Source: Singulisphaera sp. GP187 (GTDB taxonomy: Bacteria > Planctomycetota > Phycisphaerae > Phycisphaerales > SM1A02). Taken from it: a DNA stretch of 64,000 nt. This document shows, piece by piece, positions 37,383 through 46,334 of the stretch; within the stretch, counting starts at the first letter, position 1; each line of letters opens with the position of its first letter. The DNA lies in the NCBI GenBank assembly GCA_945869475.1, contig CAMBOV010000010.1:1-64000 (forward strand), written 5' to 3'. The notes beneath the pieces were generated by a model, which was not told the origin of the DNA, did no database searches, and saw only the letters and a list, made by a program, of their open reading frames with translations. The position numbers and the translations under genes were made by a program.

Positions 37383-38624
37383 TCACGGACCGATCCACCT
37401 GCCTGCGACGAGTGGTTGCGACCGCACGGGACGCAGAAAGTTTCGTCCCTCGAACACGGTGACATCTGCAGTGAGCAGGATGCTCGAGTTTCCTCGCGGC
37501 GAGCGCGACGAGTTGACCAACGACGTGAGCACCGTACTTGGAAGCAACTCGAGTGAGAGGTCGCCTTCGTCTTTCACTCCAGAGGCGAAGATGAATCGCC
37601 ACGTTCCTGAGACGGGGTCACGAGTGAGCGTTCCGCGTCGACTTTGAATTCGCATTGGTGGAAGGAGCGGTGTCGCGCGCGGTGCAGTGGCAACTGCCTG
37701 AGTCGATGTGCGCGCTTCGATCAGTGGCATCTCGATCGTTTGTGAGTCAGTCGCACGCACTGTTGCAACTGAGGGTTGCTCGACGCCCGCAGGTGCAGCG
37801 TCCGCAGGCAGTGATGGATCGCCACTCGATGGAACGACCGCAACGCGCGCGTTGAGTCGCGCTTCGAGATCGCGCGAGAAAGTTTCGGGATCGACTGTTG
37901 GCGCTGGCGTCGACGCAGCGACCGCCACCGCAGGAATTGGCGCAGTTGTCACTGCGGGCGCTGGTGCCGGAACACTCGGCGTCACTGCAACACTTGGCGC
38001 GACCACAACCGCGACCAGCTGGGCGCCCGGCGGAACAAACCTCGCAGGCGCAGGTCGCGCGATTCGTCGATCGATCGGCACCGCAAAGGTCGGCAAGAGA
38101 AAATTGCTGCCGCGGTAGACGAGAACCCGTCCACTCACTTCGAAGAGTGGAGGTGCGCCGCCCACCTTCGTCGCTGCGTTGTGTTGGTTGATCATGTCCG
38201 CAAGCGGCTCAGCAGGAAGCAGAATGAGTGATCGTCCTTGTGCTCCGTCGATGCGGTCGGCGAGTTCATACGTCCAGACACCAAGAAACTCGTCGCGACC
38301 GAGCGTGCCGCTCGCGCGCACCAAGAGTCCACCCTCTGGAATGAGCGGCGCGAGAAAACGTCCAGAGGCCTTGATCTCTGCGGCTTCTTGTTCTGGAGTG
38401 AACTGCTTCGATTGCGCCGCTGCTGCTGGTGGCTCGAGCGCCGAACTACCAACGCGTTGCACCGCTGGCAATTCGACAGGCGAAATCGGCGCCGATGGTG
38501 CGGGTTGATCTGGAGATTCTGGAGGCGTCTGCGCTGCACTCGTCGCAACAACGCAGGTCACTGCGAGCGTGCAAGCAATCCCACACGCGATCCCTTGAAC
38601 TCTTCCTCGTCGCGAAGTGCTCAC
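37383..38624 (-). CDS. Secreted protein with a duplicated unknown domain
   Basis: No known family is recognised. The 413-residue protein has a signal peptide (to about residue 31) and two copies of one domain, roughly residues 97-182 and 322-402, separated by a long Ala/Pro/Val-rich linker. The copies share LLVRASGTLGRDEFLGVWTY / RIQSRRGTLTRDPVSGTWRF, SLILLPAEPLADMIN / SLELLPSTVLTSLVN and VLVYRGSNFLLPT / VTVFEGRNFLRPV. The predicted pattern is mainly beta, suggesting an envelope or cell-surface role. The start is GTG, overlapping the clpS stop (GTGA). Confidence 0.8.
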   Translation of the reverse strand: MSTSRRGRVQGIACGIACTLAVTCVVATSAAQTPPESPDQPAPSAPISPVELPAVQRVGSSALEPPAAAAQSKQFTPEQEAAEIKASGRFLAPLIPEGGLLVRASGTLGRDEFLGVWTYELADRIDGAQGRSLILLPAEPLADMINQHNAATKVGGAPPLFEVSGRVLVYRGSNFLLPTFAVPIDRRIARPAPARFVPPGAQLVAVVVAPSVAVTPSVPAPAPAVTTAPIPAVAVAASTPAPTVDPETFSRDLEARLNARVAVVPSSGDPSLPADAAPAGVEQPSVATVRATDSQTIEMPLIEARTSTQAVATAPRATPLLPPMRIQSRRGTLTRDPVSGTWRFIFASGVKDEGDLSLELLPSTVLTSLVNSSRSPRGNSSILLTADVTVFEGRNFLRPVRSQPLVAGRWIGP

Positions 38625-38917
38625 GCAGGTTCGATGGTGACGGTGAGTCCCCGACCATTGAGTCGCTCGCGGATCAGTTCAGCATGCTCGCGGTGAGTGC
38701 ACGTCACAGGCGATGCGCCCTGAAAGTGAATCTCGTTGGTCTTCTCGATCGCGACGTTCATCTCAAGTCGCGCGATCTCGCGCAGGCAGCGAATGACGAA
38801 GTCAAACGTATTGAGATTGTCATTGTGAACGATGACCGCCCACGGACCGAGCGGCCCCGCGCGAAGTGGTGCTGGAACGACCGTCGTCTCTGGTGCAATC
38901 TCTGTGGCTTGGCTCAT
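38621..38917 (-). CDS. clpS: ClpS-like adaptor
   Basis: The 98-residue protein matches ClpS, the adaptor that hands N-degron substrates to the ClpAP protease: PWAVIVHNDNLNTFDFVIRCLREI contains the NDx-(T/x)-x-x-F-V core, and the later IHFQGASPVTCTHREHAELIRERL corresponds to the C-terminal strand-helix. The N-terminal 25 residues are unstructured as usual. Its partner clpA is not in the window. The gene follows the tRNA promoter region in the opposite direction. Confidence 0.85.
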   Translation of the reverse strand: MSQATEIAPETTVVPAPLRAGPLGPWAVIVHNDNLNTFDFVIRCLREIARLEMNVAIEKTNEIHFQGASPVTCTHREHAELIRERLNGRGLTVTIEPA

Positions 38918-38967
38918 GAAGCAGAGGGTAGTAGAAAGCCTCTCAATTGGAAAACATTTCTGTCCGT

Positions 38968-38997
38968 TTGACGGCGAGGCAGATTCCCGCCACCATA
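38968..38997 (+). promoter_or_regulatory. Candidate tRNA-Cys promoter
   Basis: TTGACG (38968-38973, five of six to the -35 consensus) lies about 40 bases before the mature tRNA. At 17-18 bases spacing the -10 region reads CACCATA, a weak match. It is the best candidate for the tRNA promoter but support is thin. Confidence 0.35.
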
Positions 38998-39008
38998 GCC
39001 CCCCCCAT

Positions 39009-39082
39009 GGCCGAGTACCCAAGTGGCCCAAGGGGACGGATTGCAAATCCGTTATTCGTGGGTTCGAATCCCACCTCGGCCT
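39009..39082 (+). tRNA. tRNA-Cys (anticodon GCA)
   Basis: The acceptor stem GGCCGAG pairs with CTCGGCC and is followed by discriminator U, as expected for tRNA-Cys. The anticodon arm is ACGGA-TTGCAAA-TCCGT with anticodon GCA, and the T-arm is GTGGGTTCGAATCCCAC. The 3' CCA is not encoded. A strong terminator follows five bases later, so the gene is a single-tRNA transcript. Confidence 0.95.
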
Positions 39083-39086
39083 CTCG

Positions 39087-39118
39087 ACCGCCCCGTTCTG
39101 CGGGGCGGTTGTGTTTTT
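39087..39118 (+). terminator. Intrinsic terminator of tRNA-Cys
   Basis: CCGCCCCG, loop TTCTG, CGGGGCGG forms a perfect 8-bp GC stem followed by TTGTGTTTTT. It stands five bases after the tRNA and is a classical intrinsic terminator. Confidence 0.9.
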
Positions 39119-39144
39119 GAGGCGAATTCTCGATCATGTTCACA

Positions 39145-39553
39145 TGCGCTTGGTGTGGATTGATTGGATCGCCACCACCGTTCGTCGAGTTGGGGTCTGC
39201 TGCATCGCCGCCGGGAGTGCCTCGCTGCTCATCGACTTTGGAAACTCATCACACGCTGTCTTCAATCCTCGCACCTGCTCGATCGACAAGGTCGAGCGCG
39301 GATCACTCTCGTGGCGCGGAAAGGTTTTTGATTTTTCGCAAGAGACTTCGCGCCATCACTCGAAGTGCGCGATGGATCGCTGCTGAAGAGCCAGGCGCCC
39401 ATCCCATATTGTTTCAAGCACATCCGAGTCGCGCGCAGGGTCCAGTCAAACTTCGCAATGTCTCGTGCGATCGAATCGGTGCGCTCACAAAACCATCCGC
39501 TGAATCACTTGCCCGTTGAGGCGGTCACGGCCGAAACCATTCTGATCGCATGA
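39145..39553 (+). pseudogene. Possible frameshifted gene remnant in the gap after tRNA-Cys
   Basis: The ~386 bases between the tRNA terminator and 39504 hold no clear gene. One frame from ATG 39145 reads through LLIDFGNSSHAVFNPRTCSIDKVERGSLSWRGKVFDFSQ, which looks protein-like, and then stops at 39386. A second frame from about 39363 continues to 39553. A single frameshift would join them. No family was recognised with confidence, and the 3' end overlaps the small opposite-strand gene at 39505. It could equally be non-coding. Confidence 0.3.
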
Positions 39554-39702
39554 TTGATTTCCCAGAGGCTGCTCGCCATGCATGCGAGGAGCCCAATGAA
39601 CAGAACCTTGAAAATGATGCTGCAGAGACGACACTTGCAACATCCTCCTGCGCAACCACTTGCCTTGGTCGTGCAACAACTCGTTGAATCGGTAGATCCC
39701 AT
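39505..39702 (-). CDS. 65-residue cysteine-rich membrane microprotein
   Basis: The gene has the best ribosome-binding site in the window: AAGGAG (39710-39715) seven bases before ATG. The 65-residue product has seven cysteines in residues 9-27 (CC, C, CC, C, C), an eighth at residue 41, one membrane helix (about residues 28-46) and a polar C-terminus. It follows the Gld-like ABC operon on the same strand at 70 bp. No family was recognised. A metal-binding or redox role is suggested only by the Cys pattern. It is too short for many gene finders. Confidence 0.72.
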   Translation of the reverse strand: MGSTDSTSCCTTKASGCAGGCCKCRLCSIIFKVLFIGLLACMASSLWEINHAIRMVSAVTASTGK

Positions 39703-39773
39703 TGTGAGTCTCCTTCGGCGGAATTGCCGTTGAAGGTCTATCGGCACTTTCAATCCTGACGCTCGAGCGATTC

Positions 39774-41642
39774 TCAGTCGTCGTTCGGTCGGGTGCGGTC
39801 GACTCGGCGGGCGGCCATCCAACACCAAAGACCCGCGATCACTGCGACAACCACGGGCCAGACAACGACGTTCACAATCAAGAGTTGCTGGCCGAGCGCG
39901 TCAACTTCTTGGCGCAATCCAAACTGCACCGATCGTAATTCTTTGCGGTAGGCGTTCACGGTGCGCTGCAATTGCGCGAGTTCTGTCTGCTGCTCTGCCG
40001 AAAGCAGCATCTGCCCAGAGGCAGCCCCCCCGCTCTTGCTCTGCAGTTGTGCGATGTTGATCTCGGTCTTTTTCACTTCGAGCTGAAGATCTTTCTCGCG
40101 CGCGATGTACCGCTCTTCGGCGGCCTTGCGCAACTCTTCAACCCGCTCAAAGGGACGGCGAAATCCACCGCGCGAGCGCAGCGTCGCCACGGCTGGATCG
40201 CCTGCCATCCGCTCGAGCAATCCAATCACGAGTGGACCGTTGTCCGAAAACGCCCGCTTCATTCCAGACTGCGGATCATCTCTCACCCACGTTTCGTCCC
40301 AGAGCAGGTCAGCGTCGGCAATGATCACGATGTTCGCGTCGCCGATCGCGGGCGAGAATGCACTGCCAATTGGACCGGTGATTCGCGCTGCAAGTGTGCG
40401 GCGCAGACCATCGGGTTTGCAATCGCGCAGCAACTGCTCGGCATCGCCGAAGTAACCGAGTTTGATCGTCTGAATCAACTGCGACCGATCGCTCGACGTA
40501 ATGAGAGGCTCGACGCGGGGATTGATTGCTGCGTCGATGTCTTTGGCGCGCATGATCTCGCCAGCACTCTTGAGGTTGATCGCCTCGAAGCCACCCACGA
40601 GTGGATCGCTCCGACTGAACGCCTTGCGCGTCAGACTGAGCCACGCGAGATAGTTCAGGTCGCGCATCGTGCCGCCAGGACCCGGCGTCGAGATGCGGGT
40701 TGTGAAATCGAGATCGCCCACGGTCATCTCGCGCGGAATCTCAACTCCCCAGGCTCGAAGAAGCGGAAAGTCGTAGGTCGTACCCGGAACTTTCGCGCCC
40801 ATCTCGCGCGCGTCGGGATCCTGATCAGACTCTGCAAATGGATCGGCGAGCACCACGAGTGGACGTCCCGCCACTGCCCACGCGTCGATCGATCGCAGCA
40901 TCGACTCGCCAAGTTTGCGAGGTTGCACCAGCAAGAGTGCGTTGATGTCGGTCGGCAACGCGGTCGCGGCGCGAGGAATCTCGACGAGGTCAAAGAGCTC
41001 GCGCATCTGCTGCAGGACAAATGGAGCGGGCGCTGGCGGACCAGGCGATCCATTCTGCATCATTCTTGGTGGCTCGAGTGGCATGCAGGAGAGGATGCCA
41101 ACCCGCGGCTTCTTCGCTCGACCAACCGTCGCGATCGACTTCGAGATTTCGTACTCAATGAATGCATCGCGGTCGGCCGTGAAGACTGGGATCGACTTGG
41201 TCTGCCCGGTGGGACCAACGGCGACGAGCCCAAGAATCGCCGTCGATCCGCTGTTATTCACGGGTTGCACGATGAGTCCAGCGGCGCGCGCGTCGTCTTC
41301 GCTCTCACTGAATGGCTGCGTATCGATGATGCGCAGTTCGAGCCTTCCATCGGCGAGGTCGACGAGTTCTTCGAGAAACTCCTCGACGCGCTGCGTGTGT
41401 GCGCGCAGTTCTGGAATGTCGGAGACCGCTTCGCGCGAAACGTAGAGATCGAGCCGCACCGGTTCATCGAGCGTTGCGAGAATCGCACGCGTGCCCGCAG
41501 ACATCGTGTAGAGACCCTCAGCAGAGAAGTCGATGCGCCATCCAATGATTGTGAGGGCGGCGGCGGCATTCACCGCAATGAGCGCGGCAAGAATCAGCGC
41601 GATCTTTGCGATGCTGGGCATTCGGCGTGTGGTCGCACTCAT
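39774..41642 (-). CDS. GldG-like ABC system membrane-anchored extracytoplasmic protein
   Basis: The 622-residue protein has an N-terminal helix (about residues 12-33), a GldG/ABC-type uncharacterised transport domain (SAEGLYTMSAGTRAIL, LDEPVRLDLYVSREA, FTADRDAFIEYEISKSI), a coiled-coil-like region (about residues 510-575, Glu/Lys/Gln-rich) and a C-terminal helix (about 588-608). In Bacteroidetes GldG works with GldF and GldA in gliding and secretion; in other phyla the substrate of this ABC type is unknown. Start overlaps the permease stop (ATGA). Confidence 0.85.
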   Translation of the reverse strand: MSATTRRMPSIAKIALILAALIAVNAAAALTIIGWRIDFSAEGLYTMSAGTRAILATLDEPVRLDLYVSREAVSDIPELRAHTQRVEEFLEELVDLADGRLELRIIDTQPFSESEDDARAAGLIVQPVNNSGSTAILGLVAVGPTGQTKSIPVFTADRDAFIEYEISKSIATVGRAKKPRVGILSCMPLEPPRMMQNGSPGPPAPAPFVLQQMRELFDLVEIPRAATALPTDINALLLVQPRKLGESMLRSIDAWAVAGRPLVVLADPFAESDQDPDAREMGAKVPGTTYDFPLLRAWGVEIPREMTVGDLDFTTRISTPGPGGTMRDLNYLAWLSLTRKAFSRSDPLVGGFEAINLKSAGEIMRAKDIDAAINPRVEPLITSSDRSQLIQTIKLGYFGDAEQLLRDCKPDGLRRTLAARITGPIGSAFSPAIGDANIVIIADADLLWDETWVRDDPQSGMKRAFSDNGPLVIGLLERMAGDPAVATLRSRGGFRRPFERVEELRKAAEERYIAREKDLQLEVKKTEINIAQLQSKSGGAASGQMLLSAEQQTELAQLQRTVNAYRKELRSVQFGLRQEVDALGQQLLIVNVVVWPVVVAVIAGLWCWMAARRVDRTRPNDD

Positions 41643-42412
41643 CGCGAACCCCTCCAGTCAAGCACGATGATGTTGATCCAGAGCAACGCGGCAGTCACTG
41701 TGACGGGATAGAGCACATCGCGCGCATCGAAGACTCCGCGCGTCATCGCGTTGAAGTGCACCATCGCGCTCATCGCCGCGACCGACTCCGGCACCCACTT
41801 GGGAGCCCACTGCGCGAAGAAGTCGAGCACAACTGGAAATCCAGTGAGCAGCAAGAGAAAACATGCAGCAACGCCGAGCACGAATGCGACGACTGCGTTG
41901 CGCGTGCACGCTGAGAGACAGGTCGTCACTGAAAGAAGTGCCGCGAAGAGAAGCGCCGATGCGATGTATCCGGCGAGCACGACTCCATGGTCTGGTGCGC
42001 CGAGCCACGCGAGAGTGATCCACAGAGGCACCGTGAGTGTGAGCGCGACGATTGAAAATGCCCACGCGGCGAGAAATTTTCCGAGCACCATGTCGCGCGT
42101 TGTCAGCGGAAGCGTCATGAGCAATTCGATCGATCCGCTGCGTCGTTCATCGGCCCAGAGCCGCATGCCGAGCGCTGGCATAAAGAAGAGTGCGAGCCAG
42201 GGTTGCCATTGAAAGAACGAGCGCAAATCTGCTTGTCCGCGCGTGTAGAGACCACCTGCTTGAAAGGACAAGAGCGCGGCCATCGCAACGAACATCACGA
42301 GAAAGACTGCGGCGAGTGGTGTCGAGAAATACGCGAAGAACTCGCGTCGAAACACGCTGCCGGTGCGCGCGAATGCCGATGGCGTCGCCGGTGGGCCCAT
42401 CACCTTGCTCAT
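41639..42412 (-). CDS. ABC-2 type permease (GldF-like)
   Basis: The 257-residue protein has six helices and ABC-2 permease features: EFFAYFSTPLAAVFLVMFV near the start, WQPWLALFFMPALGMRLWADERRSGSIELLMTLP in the middle, and a C-terminal pair of helices. This is the membrane partner of the ATPase gene just upstream and of the GldG-like protein downstream. Both borders are ATGA overlaps, so the three proteins are made in one unit. Confidence 0.9.
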   Translation of the reverse strand: MSKVMGPPATPSAFARTGSVFRREFFAYFSTPLAAVFLVMFVAMAALLSFQAGGLYTRGQADLRSFFQWQPWLALFFMPALGMRLWADERRSGSIELLMTLPLTTRDMVLGKFLAAWAFSIVALTLTVPLWITLAWLGAPDHGVVLAGYIASALLFAALLSVTTCLSACTRNAVVAFVLGVAACFLLLLTGFPVVLDFFAQWAPKWVPESVAAMSAMVHFNAMTRGVFDARDVLYPVTVTAALLWINIIVLDWRGSR

Positions 42413-43206
42413 CGTCGACCTCCGCCCGAGTTGGCGTTGCTTCGCGTTGGCGGCGCCGTGAGCGAGCGAAAGACGTGATCGAGTCGATTGTGTGCGACAC
42501 CTGAAGGCACACGCGCGTCGAGTTCTTTGGGAGTGCCGTCGAAAACCGTGAGTCCCTTGTTGATGATCACCGCGCGAGTGCAGACCGCTTCGACCTCTTC
42601 AAGAATGTGCGTCGAGAGGATGACTGCGCGGCTCTGCCCGAGCTCGCGCACGAGCTGCCTCACCTCGTGCTTTTGATTTGGGTCGAGGCCATCGGTTGGC
42701 TCGTCGAGAATCAGAACAGGTGGATCATGCAGCAACGCTTGGGCGATTCCGGTGCGGCGCTTGTAGCCCTTCGAGAGCGTTTCGATGCGTTGCCCACGGC
42801 AGGGCTCGAGGTGCACGCGCGCGACAGCCCAATTGACTCGCTCGGCGATCTGGCCGCCGCGATATCCGCGCGCACGAGCCGAGAATGCGAGAAAGTCTTC
42901 GACGCGCATTTCGGCGTAGGCGGGAGCGCCTTCAGGCAGATATCCAAATTGTCGCTTCGCTCCAAGAGGATCGCTCGCGAGATCGATGCCGGCGATTCGA
43001 ACGGTGCCCGAATCCGGTTCGAGGTATCCAGTCAACATGCGCATCGTTGTTGACTTTCCTGCACCGTTTGGACCGAGAAACCCCAGCACCTCACCCGCAC
43101 AGACTGTGAGGTCAATACCACGCACGGCTTCGAGCGATCCAAAACTTTTGCGCAGCGCAAGCGCTTCGATCAGTGGACTCGCCCCTCGAGAAACATTGGT
43201 GTGCAC
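42409..43206 (-). CDS. ABC transporter ATP-binding protein (GldA-like)
   Basis: The 265-residue ATPase has Walker A GPNGAGKST (45-53), signature LSKGYKRRTGIAQAL, and Walker B VLILDEPTDGLDPNQ. It is of the ABC-2 exporter (CcmA/NatA-like) group and drives the permease and GldG-like protein encoded next. The start is GTG, and the C-terminal tail has a short Asn/Gly-rich end. The gene lies nine bases after the stop of the DNRLRE-type gene, which reads in the same direction. Confidence 0.93.
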   Translation of the reverse strand: MHTNVSRGASPLIEALALRKSFGSLEAVRGIDLTVCAGEVLGFLGPNGAGKSTTMRMLTGYLEPDSGTVRIAGIDLASDPLGAKRQFGYLPEGAPAYAEMRVEDFLAFSARARGYRGGQIAERVNWAVARVHLEPCRGQRIETLSKGYKRRTGIAQALLHDPPVLILDEPTDGLDPNQKHEVRQLVRELGQSRAVILSTHILEEVEAVCTRAVIINKGLTVFDGTPKELDARVPSGVAHNRLDHVFRSLTAPPTRSNANSGGGRR

Positions 43207-43215
43207 ACTTGTTTT

Positions 43216-44076
43216 CTACCACGCAGCGAGCACAAGCGCGAGGTCGATGCCGTTGACGGTGCCATCGTTGTCAATATCGGCGGTCGGGTTCGAGGTCGCC
43301 CACGCGCCGAGCACGATCGCAAGGTCGACCCCATTGACGACTCCGTCACCGTTGACATCCGCAGGATTCGCTGGCGGCGGGGTATAGGTGATGATCAATT
43401 GTGGCTGATTCACCGTCGAATTTCGTGAATCGAATCGTTTGACCGACTGCAGAGTTGTCTCGTTGCCAAGCACGAACCAACCGAAGTTGCCGGCGGGTTG
43501 GTTGAGCCATCCCTGAACGTCTGAGACGAGTCGCGCCGAGGTCGCCCACGAGTACCACGCGATTCCGGCGACACTCTTGGTCGCGCTCGCGACGGGCTCC
43601 CAGTTGCCACCCGGTGTCGTCCACGGTTGCCCTGGATAGAAGCGATTGACCCACGTCGCGTCGCCGGGCTGTGCGGGAGCGCCGCCGCCGCCGAATGCGA
43701 ACGATGTGCCTTCGCCCCACGACTGGACTGCGCGGTGCAGAGAAATGTTGTGGGTGCCACCTTGGGTCGCACTCATGTAGAGCTTGAGTTGAACAGCCGT
43801 GATGACCGACCCAGCTGGAATCGTCGAGAAATCGAAGCGCATCAGGCCGCGGCGAAGCGTGCCGAGCCCCTGCTCGCCAACCCGTCCTGCATAAATCTGA
43901 TACGCCATTCCAAGGGCGAGTTGAGCACCATCTGGGTCAGAGATGAGCGTCGCGTCTGCGACCGACCCGAGCGTGATTGTCGCCGCTTCTGCGCTCGGCG
44001 CGAAAGTCGTCATGGTTGTGAACTGGGCAGTGAGAAGACTCGCCAGAAGCGCTGCTGTTCGTCGAGGTTTGGTCAT
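43216..44076 (-). CDS. Secreted DNRLRE-type protein with dockerin-like C-terminus
   Basis: The 286-residue protein has a signal peptide, then a DNRLRE/TIGR-type beta domain with ADATLISD, RRGLMRFDFSTIPAGSVITAVQLKLYM and TLQSVKRFDSRNSTVNQPQLIITY, typical of exported planctomycete proteins. The end carries two repeats, DVNGDGVVNGVDLAIVLGAW and DIDNDGTVNGIDLALVLAAW. The ATG was chosen because it overlaps the upstream stop (ATGA); another ATG three codons earlier is possible. The role is unknown; a structural or surface protein is likely. Confidence 0.82.
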   Translation of the reverse strand: MTKPRRTAALLASLLTAQFTTMTTFAPSAEAATITLGSVADATLISDPDGAQLALGMAYQIYAGRVGEQGLGTLRRGLMRFDFSTIPAGSVITAVQLKLYMSATQGGTHNISLHRAVQSWGEGTSFAFGGGGAPAQPGDATWVNRFYPGQPWTTPGGNWEPVASATKSVAGIAWYSWATSARLVSDVQGWLNQPAGNFGWFVLGNETTLQSVKRFDSRNSTVNQPQLIITYTPPPANPADVNGDGVVNGVDLAIVLGAWATSNPTADIDNDGTVNGIDLALVLAAW

Positions 44077-46334
44077 CCGTTCCATCCCGTCAAGAGGAAG
44101 GTGAGGTCGTCGCCGCTCACGACGCCGTCGAAGTCGATGTCACCCAATCCAGATCCGCCCCAGTTTCCGAGCAAGATCGTGAGATCGGCTCCGTTGATGA
44201 ATCCATCGCCGCTGATGTCTGGATTGAAGAGCACTCGCGAGGTGACCGTGAGTGGGACTGACTTCTCGACGAAAAGACCGCTCGCGTCCGTGCCACGAAG
44301 TGTGACCGTGTGCGATCCAACGCTGAGGCTCGCGACGAGCAACTGTCGGCCGCTGCCGATCGCACCATCGAGCGATGAAGTCCATGCAAACGCTGTGTCG
44401 GCCATGTATTGATCTTCGAGATCCCATCCCGATGCATGAAAGAGGATCGACGCTCCCGCTGGAAAACTCTGCGCGTTGTTTGGAGTGAGCAGATGAACAT
44501 CGGGTGGATTCTCGCCCAGAAGAGTCGACCAGTCGCCGTCACCAGCGATCGAGCCTTCGTCGCTCGAAGCGCCGAACTCACCGAGCGCGGCGGGCATTTC
44601 GGCATCGACGATGTTGAGTCCGTCGCTCACTCGAACCTTGACGATGCCCTGACCCACGTGCGCCACTGGAAGGTCTGCAAGTGAGAATCTCATCGACGAA
44701 TTCGCTTGATTCACGCCGATCGCCGACCACGACTGCCCGCCATCGCGGCTGAGCAAGAGGTCAGCACTCAGCGCATCGCCATCGTCATCTTTCGCACTCC
44801 AGAAGAGTTCAACGAACGGACCAACTCCGCGGTGACTCGCGACACCTGCACCATCGACAACGCGACTTCCAAGACTCACCACGCGCGGCGCCGACGGTGT
44901 GCGCGTGCGCGATGCGAGAAGCCGTCCACTCTTGAGATCTCGCAACTCGATGCGAGCGAGTTGTTGATTGCGAACGGTTGCCGGGAGCAAGACAGAAACG
45001 AGCGAATGATCGTGCAGCTGACCCGTCGCGCACGACTCGCGGGTCGTGCCGGACTTCCACCGAAGACTCGTCAACAGTTCGCCGCTCGCACCGAACGATT
45101 GAACCAACAGATCACCACGTGCATCGTCAAGAGTCGGTTGCGCAAGGTCGATCTGGTTCGCAGCGAAGAGGTCGATGGACGCAGCGCGATGCTCATACGA
45201 CCCGGTGATTTGAAGCACGCGTTGTTCATCCGACGCGGGAGTCTCGCCGCCACCAGGGGGAGCAAATGCTGTGCACTGTGAGCGTGCGTCGGTGAGGCAA
45301 TCATTGTACGTGCCAGTGTCAACCCACGCCTGATTGGTGAGCAATCCCGCGACCATCACATCACTCTGAGTTGTCGCGTGCGTCTGCCCCAAAGAGAGTG
45401 GCGACGCAAGGTGGTGTTCGACGTCGAACCCGACTGCGGCGATCGTGCTACTGGTGTGACTGCGTCCCCAGCAGTGACCGATTTCATGCGCAAACGTCCG
45501 TTGAAATCGCGTCGACTCGGTGTTTCCAAATGCAACGGCGCCGGGAATTCCGTCGGCCTGTCCATTGCCGCTGAAAGGATTGCCCGGAAGCCATCCATAG
45601 AGAAACTCTGGTCGCGCATATCCCGCGGCAGGAATCGTCGTCAGTCGAATTGTCTGCAGTGAACTCAGCAGCGCCGCGTTGCTTGAGTCAATCGCCTGCG
45701 TCCACGTCAATGGACCCAGTGGCGAGCGGTGATAGTTCAACTCTGCAACGGCGTAGATGCCGCGCATGAATGCATCGCCAACTCCAGGCTCGATCGTCGC
45801 CGCGACGGGCTGTCCACCACCTGGGGTGTAATTGATCGAGACGTATCCAACATCTAAGACCTTGCGACAGGCGAAGACCTTGTTGTCGAGCGCGTAGATG
45901 TTGTTCGCTTCATTGCTCTCAACGATGAGATTTCTGCCGTCAACGACAATCTGAAAGTCGACGTCTGTGCTCTGCGGAGGAATGAAGGTGAAATTGAGCG
46001 TGTTGTCGACCGTGAGCGAATTGGGAGTGATCGGCGCACTGATGGGACCGTTGCGCGAGAAGAACGGCGAGCCCGCAATCTGCACGCCGCCTGAATAGAT
46101 GCGCAAGACTGCGTCAACGTTTGGCTGAGCGGTCGTCTGTCCGGTGACTGCGATCTTCACGCGCACGGTCGTCGCGCGACCCGCGACAAGCGTGGTCGTG
46201 CCGAACTGTGCACCTTGTGTGAGCTCGACGCTCGCAACGCTGAGATCGACCGCAAGTGCAGAACTGCAACAACATGCTGCGAGCGCGGTCAGAACAACTT
46301 CGCTCACACGGTTCTTAGTTCGAAGCACTTTCAT
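44073..46334 (-). CDS. Secreted metzincin-type metalloprotease with CARDB-like and dockerin-like domains
   Basis: The 753-residue protein has a signal peptide (to about residue 28), an N-terminal CARDB-like beta domain (about 30-145, ending in VESNEANNIYALD), and a zinc-protease motif HEIGHCWGRSH (283-293), an exact HExxHxxGxxH metzincin pattern. Middle regions look like beta sandwich modules (Pkd/Ig-like; for example DALSADLLLSRDGGQSWS). The C-terminus has dockerin-like repeats DISGDGFINGADLTILLGNWG and DIDFDGVVSGDDLTFLLTGW. It should be an exported zinc protease. Confidence 0.88.
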   Translation of the reverse strand: MKVLRTKNRVSEVVLTALAACCCSSALAVDLSVASVELTQGAQFGTTTLVAGRATTVRVKIAVTGQTTAQPNVDAVLRIYSGGVQIAGSPFFSRNGPISAPITPNSLTVDNTLNFTFIPPQSTDVDFQIVVDGRNLIVESNEANNIYALDNKVFACRKVLDVGYVSINYTPGGGQPVAATIEPGVGDAFMRGIYAVAELNYHRSPLGPLTWTQAIDSSNAALLSSLQTIRLTTIPAAGYARPEFLYGWLPGNPFSGNGQADGIPGAVAFGNTESTRFQRTFAHEIGHCWGRSHTSSTIAAVGFDVEHHLASPLSLGQTHATTQSDVMVAGLLTNQAWVDTGTYNDCLTDARSQCTAFAPPGGGETPASDEQRVLQITGSYEHRAASIDLFAANQIDLAQPTLDDARGDLLVQSFGASGELLTSLRWKSGTTRESCATGQLHDHSLVSVLLPATVRNQQLARIELRDLKSGRLLASRTRTPSAPRVVSLGSRVVDGAGVASHRGVGPFVELFWSAKDDDGDALSADLLLSRDGGQSWSAIGVNQANSSMRFSLADLPVAHVGQGIVKVRVSDGLNIVDAEMPAALGEFGASSDEGSIAGDGDWSTLLGENPPDVHLLTPNNAQSFPAGASILFHASGWDLEDQYMADTAFAWTSSLDGAIGSGRQLLVASLSVGSHTVTLRGTDASGLFVEKSVPLTVTSRVLFNPDISGDGFINGADLTILLGNWGGSGLGDIDFDGVVSGDDLTFLLTGWNG

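Follow-up and report, generated by a model that had tools for sequence, protein, structure and literature searches.

Does a short cysteine-rich reading frame, lying just past an ATP-binding cassette (ABC) export operon in a planctomycete genome, encode a real protein, and does such a protein serve the operon beside it? The frame is found on contig CAMBOV010000010.1 of assembly GCA_945869475.1 (Singulisphaera sp. GP187), of which positions 1 to 64,000 were analyzed; this whole stretch of 64,000 nucleotides (nt) is referred to as the window. An original prediction, made from the DNA letters alone, described a 65-residue membrane microprotein with seven cysteines crowded ahead of its helix and suggested metal binding, redox control, or a link with the ABC genes. 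We conclude that the microprotein is a coding gene under purifying selection and that it belongs to a real, single-copy family found only in one planctomycete family. The real gene, the membrane microprotein, and the conserved frame hold up, whereas a functional tie to the ABC genes and a fixed cysteine pattern do not.

Results

A conserved family under purifying selection

A profile (A1) built from 18 rows was applied to the 181 genomes of the GTDB family to which the source belongs. At E <= 0.01 it matched 49 genomes, 47 of them strongly (E <= 3e-9), and the strong matches fall in 10 of the 45 genera of that family. The homologue search proposed with the original prediction therefore finds the reading frame conserved. 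The gene is single copy in each genome, as the few second matches in the profile search all have E > 0.005. Two weaker genomes, G077 (E 0.0045, perhaps a real fragment) and G009 (E 0.0049), are not counted, and the aligned set comprises 41 of the 47 strong hits (G073, G161, G169, G166, G082, and G167 were left out).

Selection on the gene was assessed in pairs within genera. The proportion of nonsynonymous differences (pN) is lower than that of synonymous differences (pS) in all 131 pairs, and the median ratio of nonsynonymous to synonymous rates (dN/dS) is 0.22 over the 89 pairs for which it could be computed, with synonymous sites near saturation in many pairs (median pS, 0.70). A GGAG or AAGGA sequence occurs no more than 18 nt from the start in 40 of the 41 aligned members. 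Of the window's 362 frames that begin with ATG and have 40 or more codons, only 1 has at least seven cysteines within its first 27 residues; 20 second-order Markov shuffles (484 to 525 frames each) gave none. Chance is excluded as an explanation of the open reading frame (ORF) because it is conserved in relatives.

Beyond the GTDB family, the samples of the class gave only weak matches at E <= 0.01, in 1 of 248 and 5 of 397 genomes, as did the phylum sample, scanned without the broader profile A2 (6 of 294 genomes); these scans are overlapping samples of larger groups, and some genomes had only part of their first-look candidates scored. The best E value in the class and phylum samples is 5.5e-4. 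We take these weak matches as chance; the sole translation inspected (L056) lacks the tryptophan described below. A scan of an 84,980-species collection with a 9-residue pattern, which misses members with LAC, LVC, or LMW, returned 55 stretches, including 21 loci that encode relatives. These come from planctomycete or Phycisphaerae metagenome-assembled genomes and one "uncultured bacterium," with isolate names that include Baikal-deep, ALOHA, and Arabian; many of the 21 loci are evidently already among the contigs of the profile search and so are not independent. No relative was found among the 413 stretches from a single-protein pattern search of genome contigs or the 6 pattern stretches in virus contigs.

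Sequence searches of Pfam, NCBIfam, PHROGs, PADLOC, and PDB gave no credible family match for the microprotein. The best matches are at chance level (Pfam Sh_2, 1 member, E 0.0036, and PELP1_HEAT, 4 members, E 0.0039; PHROGs, 0.034; PADLOC, 0.048; NCBIfam, 0.062), and literature searches aimed at the family found no description of it in the titles and abstract openings listed. The family is described by no searched library and is a new small-protein family of a known kind.

A search with the single sequence matched 23 of 61 genomes at E <= 0.1, several of the matches being judged nonhomologous on inspection; from this search, L018 and L020 to L025 were left out as unrelated or unclear. One of these (L025, positions 1501 to 1665, in G011) lies in a 271-amino-acid frame with a Cys/Gly-rich stretch directly followed by a hydrophobic segment; the L-x-C...W motif is missing from it, and it is unlikely to be related. 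The weak matches in G009 and G012 fall in frames of similar length.

A variable cysteine tail ahead of an invariant helix motif

The microprotein consists of an N-terminal tail and a membrane helix that carries a core motif (Table 1). Translation gives cysteines at positions 9, 10, 17, 21, 22, 24, 27, and 41, which confirms the predicted seven within the first 27 residues and places the eighth, Cys41, inside the membrane helix. The best 19-residue window of the helix spans residues 26 to 44 (mean Kyte-Doolittle value, 2.27), and a helix is predicted for residues 24 to 63, with a mean predicted local distance difference test score (pLDDT) of 91 for residues 31 to 40 and 84 for residues 41 to 50; the membrane assignment rests on Kyte-Doolittle hydropathy and structure prediction. 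Members of the family are 44 to 65 amino acids long, and their best 19-residue hydropathy is 1.74 to 2.69 in all 41. With fewer than 100 residues and one helix predicted for the window protein, this is a single-pass small membrane protein.

The helix motif, L-[TAV]-C-[IM]-[AS]-x-[SA]-[LM]-W, is fixed in 41 of 41 aligned members. Counted from its cysteine, the leucine at -2, the cysteine itself, and the tryptophan at +6 are invariant; the residue at -1 is Thr in 37 members, Ala in 3 (the window copy included), and Val in 1, and that at +1 is Ile or Met. A histidine stands six residues before the cysteine in 19 members. The invariant cysteine is thus the intramembrane one, on which the original prediction laid no stress.

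In agreement with that prediction, cysteines precede the helix in every aligned member. Their number ahead of the motif varies: two in 2 members, three in 14, four in 14, five in 6, six in 3, and seven in 2, with a range of three to seven inside the genus of the window, whose own copy stands at the top. A CC pair occurs in 34 members, a cysteine lies 7 to 18 residues before the intramembrane one in 40, and a cysteine follows the motif in 2. The cysteine pattern of the original prediction holds only in part, a fixed seven-cysteine site being excluded by an N-terminal number that varies from two to seven. The tail is loosely constrained.

The net charge ahead of the helix is positive in 36 members, zero in 4, and negative in 1, and the charge after the helix is zero or negative in 27 of the 28 members outside the genus. 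The N terminus is probably inside the cell, a topology that these charges favor and do not prove.

The start and its ribosome-binding site

The coding frame is on the minus strand (39702..39505), a strand that the original prediction left unstated; from position 39505 the plus strand has stops in the given frame. The good start in an AAGGAG context is confirmed as AAGGAG-7-ATG, but to call it the strongest ribosome-binding site of the window was an overstatement. Among the 54 other ORFs of at least 100 amino acids, 7 tie or beat its Shine-Dalgarno duplex energy when taken at their best start and 5 when taken at their longest (energies computed against the 16S tail). Only four of the window's ORFs with 40 or more codons have an exact AAGGAG 4 to 12 nt before a start codon, the microprotein among them.

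Directly ahead of the Shine-Dalgarno sequence lies an inverted repeat, CGGC-AATTCC-GCCG (39716 to 39729, minus strand), and upstream alignments show similar letters in several congeners. A short GCCGA-containing stretch recurs upstream of the microprotein in several genera, a recurrence that may reflect no more than background.

Genomic neighborhood

Forty neighborhoods were examined in addition to the window, giving 13 loci in the genus and 28 loci in nine other genera; neighboring ORFs are mechanical gene calls, and some short ones are doubtful. As predicted, the microprotein follows the ABC genes (Table 1), on the same strand and 71 nt past the stop of the GldG-like gene. All 13 loci of the genus have that gene upstream, and 11 of the 13 have the tRNA-Cys and ClpS genes downstream, the other two contigs ending first. 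Outside the genus the GldG-like gene is found in 0 of 28 loci (some contigs are short). Moreover, in two genomes of the window's genus (G003 and G008) a single contig bears the GldG-like gene, tRNA-Cys, and ClpS but no core motif between them, so these three genes persist without the microprotein. The G003 contig begins inside the GldG-like gene, and among the ABC genes this empty-site evidence covers the GldG-like one. These loci give no support to the suggested functional tie with the GldA/F/G-like operon.

TABLE 1 Features of the microprotein locus, in window coordinates
Feature	Position	Strand	Basis or role
Microprotein gene, 65 amino acids, ATG start, TGA stop	39505..39702	-	ORF reading, homologues, purifying selection
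Shine-Dalgarno sequence AAGGAG, 7 nt ahead of ATG	39710..39715	-	Exact sequence
Cysteine-rich N-terminal tail, residues 1-27 (7 Cys), no predicted secondary structure to residue 23	39622..39702	-	Sequence and structure prediction
Hydrophobic membrane helix (predicted), residues 26-49	39556..39627	-	Hydropathy and structure prediction
Core motif LACMASSLW, residues 39-47, invariant Cys41 and Trp47	39562..39588	-	Alignment of 41 members
GldG-like ABC auxiliary protein (PF09822, PF23357), below curated cutoff of GldG equivalog	39774..41642	-	Upstream context, this genus only
GldF-like ABC-2 permease, below equivalog cutoff	41639..42412	-	Context
GldA-like ABC ATPase, below equivalog cutoff	42409..43206	-	Context
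tRNA-Cys(GCA), convergent	39009..39083	+	Context in this genus
ClpS adaptor	38621..38917	-	Context in this genus

In the other four genomes of the genus without the gene, no empty site is seen on a single contig: the two flanking genes are on different contigs in G010, the GldG-like gene runs into the contig end in G009, and in G005 and G014 only a GldG-like paralogue of 40% identity was found, the ClpS contig starting just before tRNA-Cys. A GldG-like paralogue (39 to 41% identity) is present in all six congeners searched (L107, L108, L109, L110, L111, and L112). Ahead of the ABC genes, at 43216 to 46334 on the minus strand, lie genes for a 289-amino-acid protein with CBM96 and dockerin matches and a 753-amino-acid protein; their relatives occupy the corresponding place in 10 of the 12 congener loci retrieved, and the other two loci end first.

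Of the 28 loci outside the genus, 20 have their nearest called upstream ORF on the opposite strand and 7 have it on the strand of the microprotein; in 1 a contig end leaves none. The gene likely has its own promoter, given the 20 loci in which that ORF is on the other strand; a promoter scan of 38500..43500 did not find a sigma-70-like site. Profiled neighbors are diverse. They include a PhoPQ-related protein behind an HD/GAF protein, an OprB porin and a carbonic anhydrase, malate:quinone oxidoreductase, a cupin, DUF697 proteins, a MIP channel, a sulfatase-modifying-type protein with an MFS permease, a reprolysin-type peptidase, a sulfatase, and gamma-glutamyltranspeptidase. The widest neighbor cluster is a broad ABC-ATPase cluster, in 4 of 10 genera, and none is common to all genera. 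Five loci (L073, L074, L077, L081, and L096) of three genera (g5, g8, and g51) have a gene for an M14 zinc carboxypeptidase upstream on the opposite strand. Three of the four loci of genus g57 have a different kind of ABC exporter (ABC_membrane/ABC_tran) in that position, which leaves some room for a link to ABC transporters in general. A cysteine-rich leader peptide controlling tRNA-Cys was considered and rejected: the tRNA is encoded on the opposite strand, and ARAGORN detected no tRNA-Cys in any of the 28 loci from other genera.

Between the microprotein and tRNA-Cys, and convergent to the microprotein, are the remains of a lost two-gene cassette. The cassette is open in G001 (L067), where it encodes a 310-amino-acid protein without a Pfam hit and a 916-amino-acid protein with 3-keto-disaccharide-hydrolase, DUF7133, and PA14 domains. 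Two pieces of the window match the cassette proteins (39171 to 39353, plus strand, 61% identity; 39379 to 39495, plus strand, 62%). A long copy in G004 (L066) is truncated where the contig stops, L065 shows the cassette in pieces, and the only match among the 28 loci outside the genus is short (L093, 34%).

Discussion

What the protein does can be proposed only tentatively. Our preferred reading, which we hold to be a reasonable possibility and somewhat short of an even chance, is that it is a single-pass inner-membrane microprotein acting in trans as an accessory protein or regulator, with a functional thiol tail. The tail would face the cytosol because lysines and arginines sit before the helix, and its thiols would therefore be reduced and able to bind a thiophilic metal or to switch with redox state. 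They may thus bind a soft or thiophilic metal or sense redox state, while the conserved part of the helix, with its small residues, cysteine, and tryptophan, may pack either on itself or on a membrane partner whose gene lies elsewhere. In such a role the microprotein would assist or regulate in trans, with its tail reporting on metal or thiol status.

Several observations weigh against this reading. The number and spacing of the tail cysteines vary, down to two, which makes a defined metal site unlikely in every member. Overall confidence in the structure model is low (mean pLDDT, 66.9; predicted template modeling score, 0.34), and all 13 members inside the genus also have a positively charged C-terminal tail, so that charge is indecisive for topology there. 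The dN/dS ratio is high in some close pairs, with values of 0.80 for L083/L085 and 0.60 for L093/L094. No copy was found in 6 of the 19 genomes of the genus; these six are 70 to 97% complete, one of them (G009) has weak matches only, and the microprotein seems dispensable in places.

One alternative makes the microprotein an accessory subunit, or a regulator, either of the neighboring GldA/F/G-like exporter or of ABC exporters as a class. It draws on the position of the gene behind the GldG-like gene throughout the genus and on the different exporter in g57, but we consider it quite unlikely, as the GldG-like gene is missing from the sampled loci of the other genera, the two empty sites keep the flanking genes without the microprotein, and the microprotein is not encoded with the GldA/F/G genes wherever it is present. 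An equally low probability attaches to a single-helix subunit of a terminal oxidase, either CydX-like (cytochrome bd) or a small cbb3 subunit. Size, the single helix, and an invariant tryptophan of the CydX-like type would fit; however, the window's genome has neither CydA (PF01654) nor FixO (PF02433) at E <= 1e-10, CydA occurs in 12 of 181 genomes and 3 of 47 bearers of the microprotein, FixO in 42 of 181 and 5 of 47, and no oxidase gene is among the profiled neighbors. This co-occurrence pattern, assessed for CydA and FixO, argues against membership in a bd or cbb3 oxidase.

Scarcely more or less credible than these two is a lipoprotein, in which the hydrophobic stretch would be a signal peptide cleaved before Cys41 to leave a short acylated peptide. 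The cysteine is invariant, and LLAC in the window copy fits a lipobox, the consensus of which has a small residue (G/A/S) at -1; two other members likewise have Ala there. The family as a whole does not follow this consensus, with Thr at -1 in 37 of 41 members and the invariant Leu at -2, not -3, and residues past the cysteine are largely hydrophobic or small up to the W and I. A small hydrophobic toxin of the type I toxin-antitoxin kind is, if anything, slightly less probable still. It would account for a short protein with one helix, a strong ribosome-binding site, and patchy presence, but the gene is single copy, occupies the same site in 13 of 13 loci of the genus, and is under purifying selection; no toxin family is among the matches of the 41 members in Pfam, NCBIfam, and PADLOC (antisense RNA was not sought). 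A spurious intergenic ORF or a noncoding RNA can be set aside almost completely: there is no credible database family match and gene remains lie downstream, but protein-level conservation in 10 genera with differing contexts, the Shine-Dalgarno sequences, and the selection results already refute it.

The trans-acting microprotein thus remains the reading we favor. Whatever its function, the locus adds a well-supported small membrane protein family with residues that are open to test, namely, Cys41, Trp47, and the tail thiols, in a lineage whose named relatives are metagenome assemblies. The empty site in two congeners also illustrates how a nearby operon can lead functional guesses about a microprotein astray.

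Comparison with known systems

Small single-helix accessory proteins of bacterial membrane complexes are exemplified by CydX, AcrZ, and KdpF. The microprotein resembles them in size, in its one helix, and in a conserved helix motif that likely serves packing, but it differs in having a cysteine tail, which is not known from any of the three, and in lacking a partner gene common to all genera. As a conserved small family without a domain match, it also resembles entries of the GMSC catalogue, in which 15.3% of families are predicted to be transmembrane or secreted (PMC11364881); see also the Pro-SMP finder paper (PMC10903887). The zinc-finger microproteins of Haloferax volcanii are likewise below 70 amino acids and bear cysteines, and the majority reportedly bind zinc whereas several do not (PMC11241148). 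In contrast to them, the microprotein has a membrane helix, and of the two C(P)XCG motifs that mark such zinc-finger proteins not even one was counted by regular expression in any of the 41 members.

The CYSTM proteins share with the microprotein a small, cysteine-rich, membrane-embedded build, but their cysteines lie in the C-terminal segment and they are eukaryotic, whereas the microprotein is bacterial and has an N-terminal cysteine tail and an unlike helix motif. CYSTM is also absent from the six Pfam-A families listed up to E 1 for the 41 members. CYSTM proteins are described as small, cysteine-rich, tail-anchored membrane proteins of eukaryotes, two yeast members of which are tied to manganese stress (PMC10217909). 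A bolder reading, which we regard as unlikely but worth stating, is that the microprotein is a bacterial counterpart of such eukaryotic cysteine-rich membrane modules, particular to a single family of Phycisphaerae-type planctomycetes; its helix would clamp a partner via the invariant cysteine while a freely evolving cytosolic thiol tail would sense a soft metal or redox state. If thiol sensing is true, bacteria would possess an architecture reminiscent of eukaryotic CYSTM that evolved separately.
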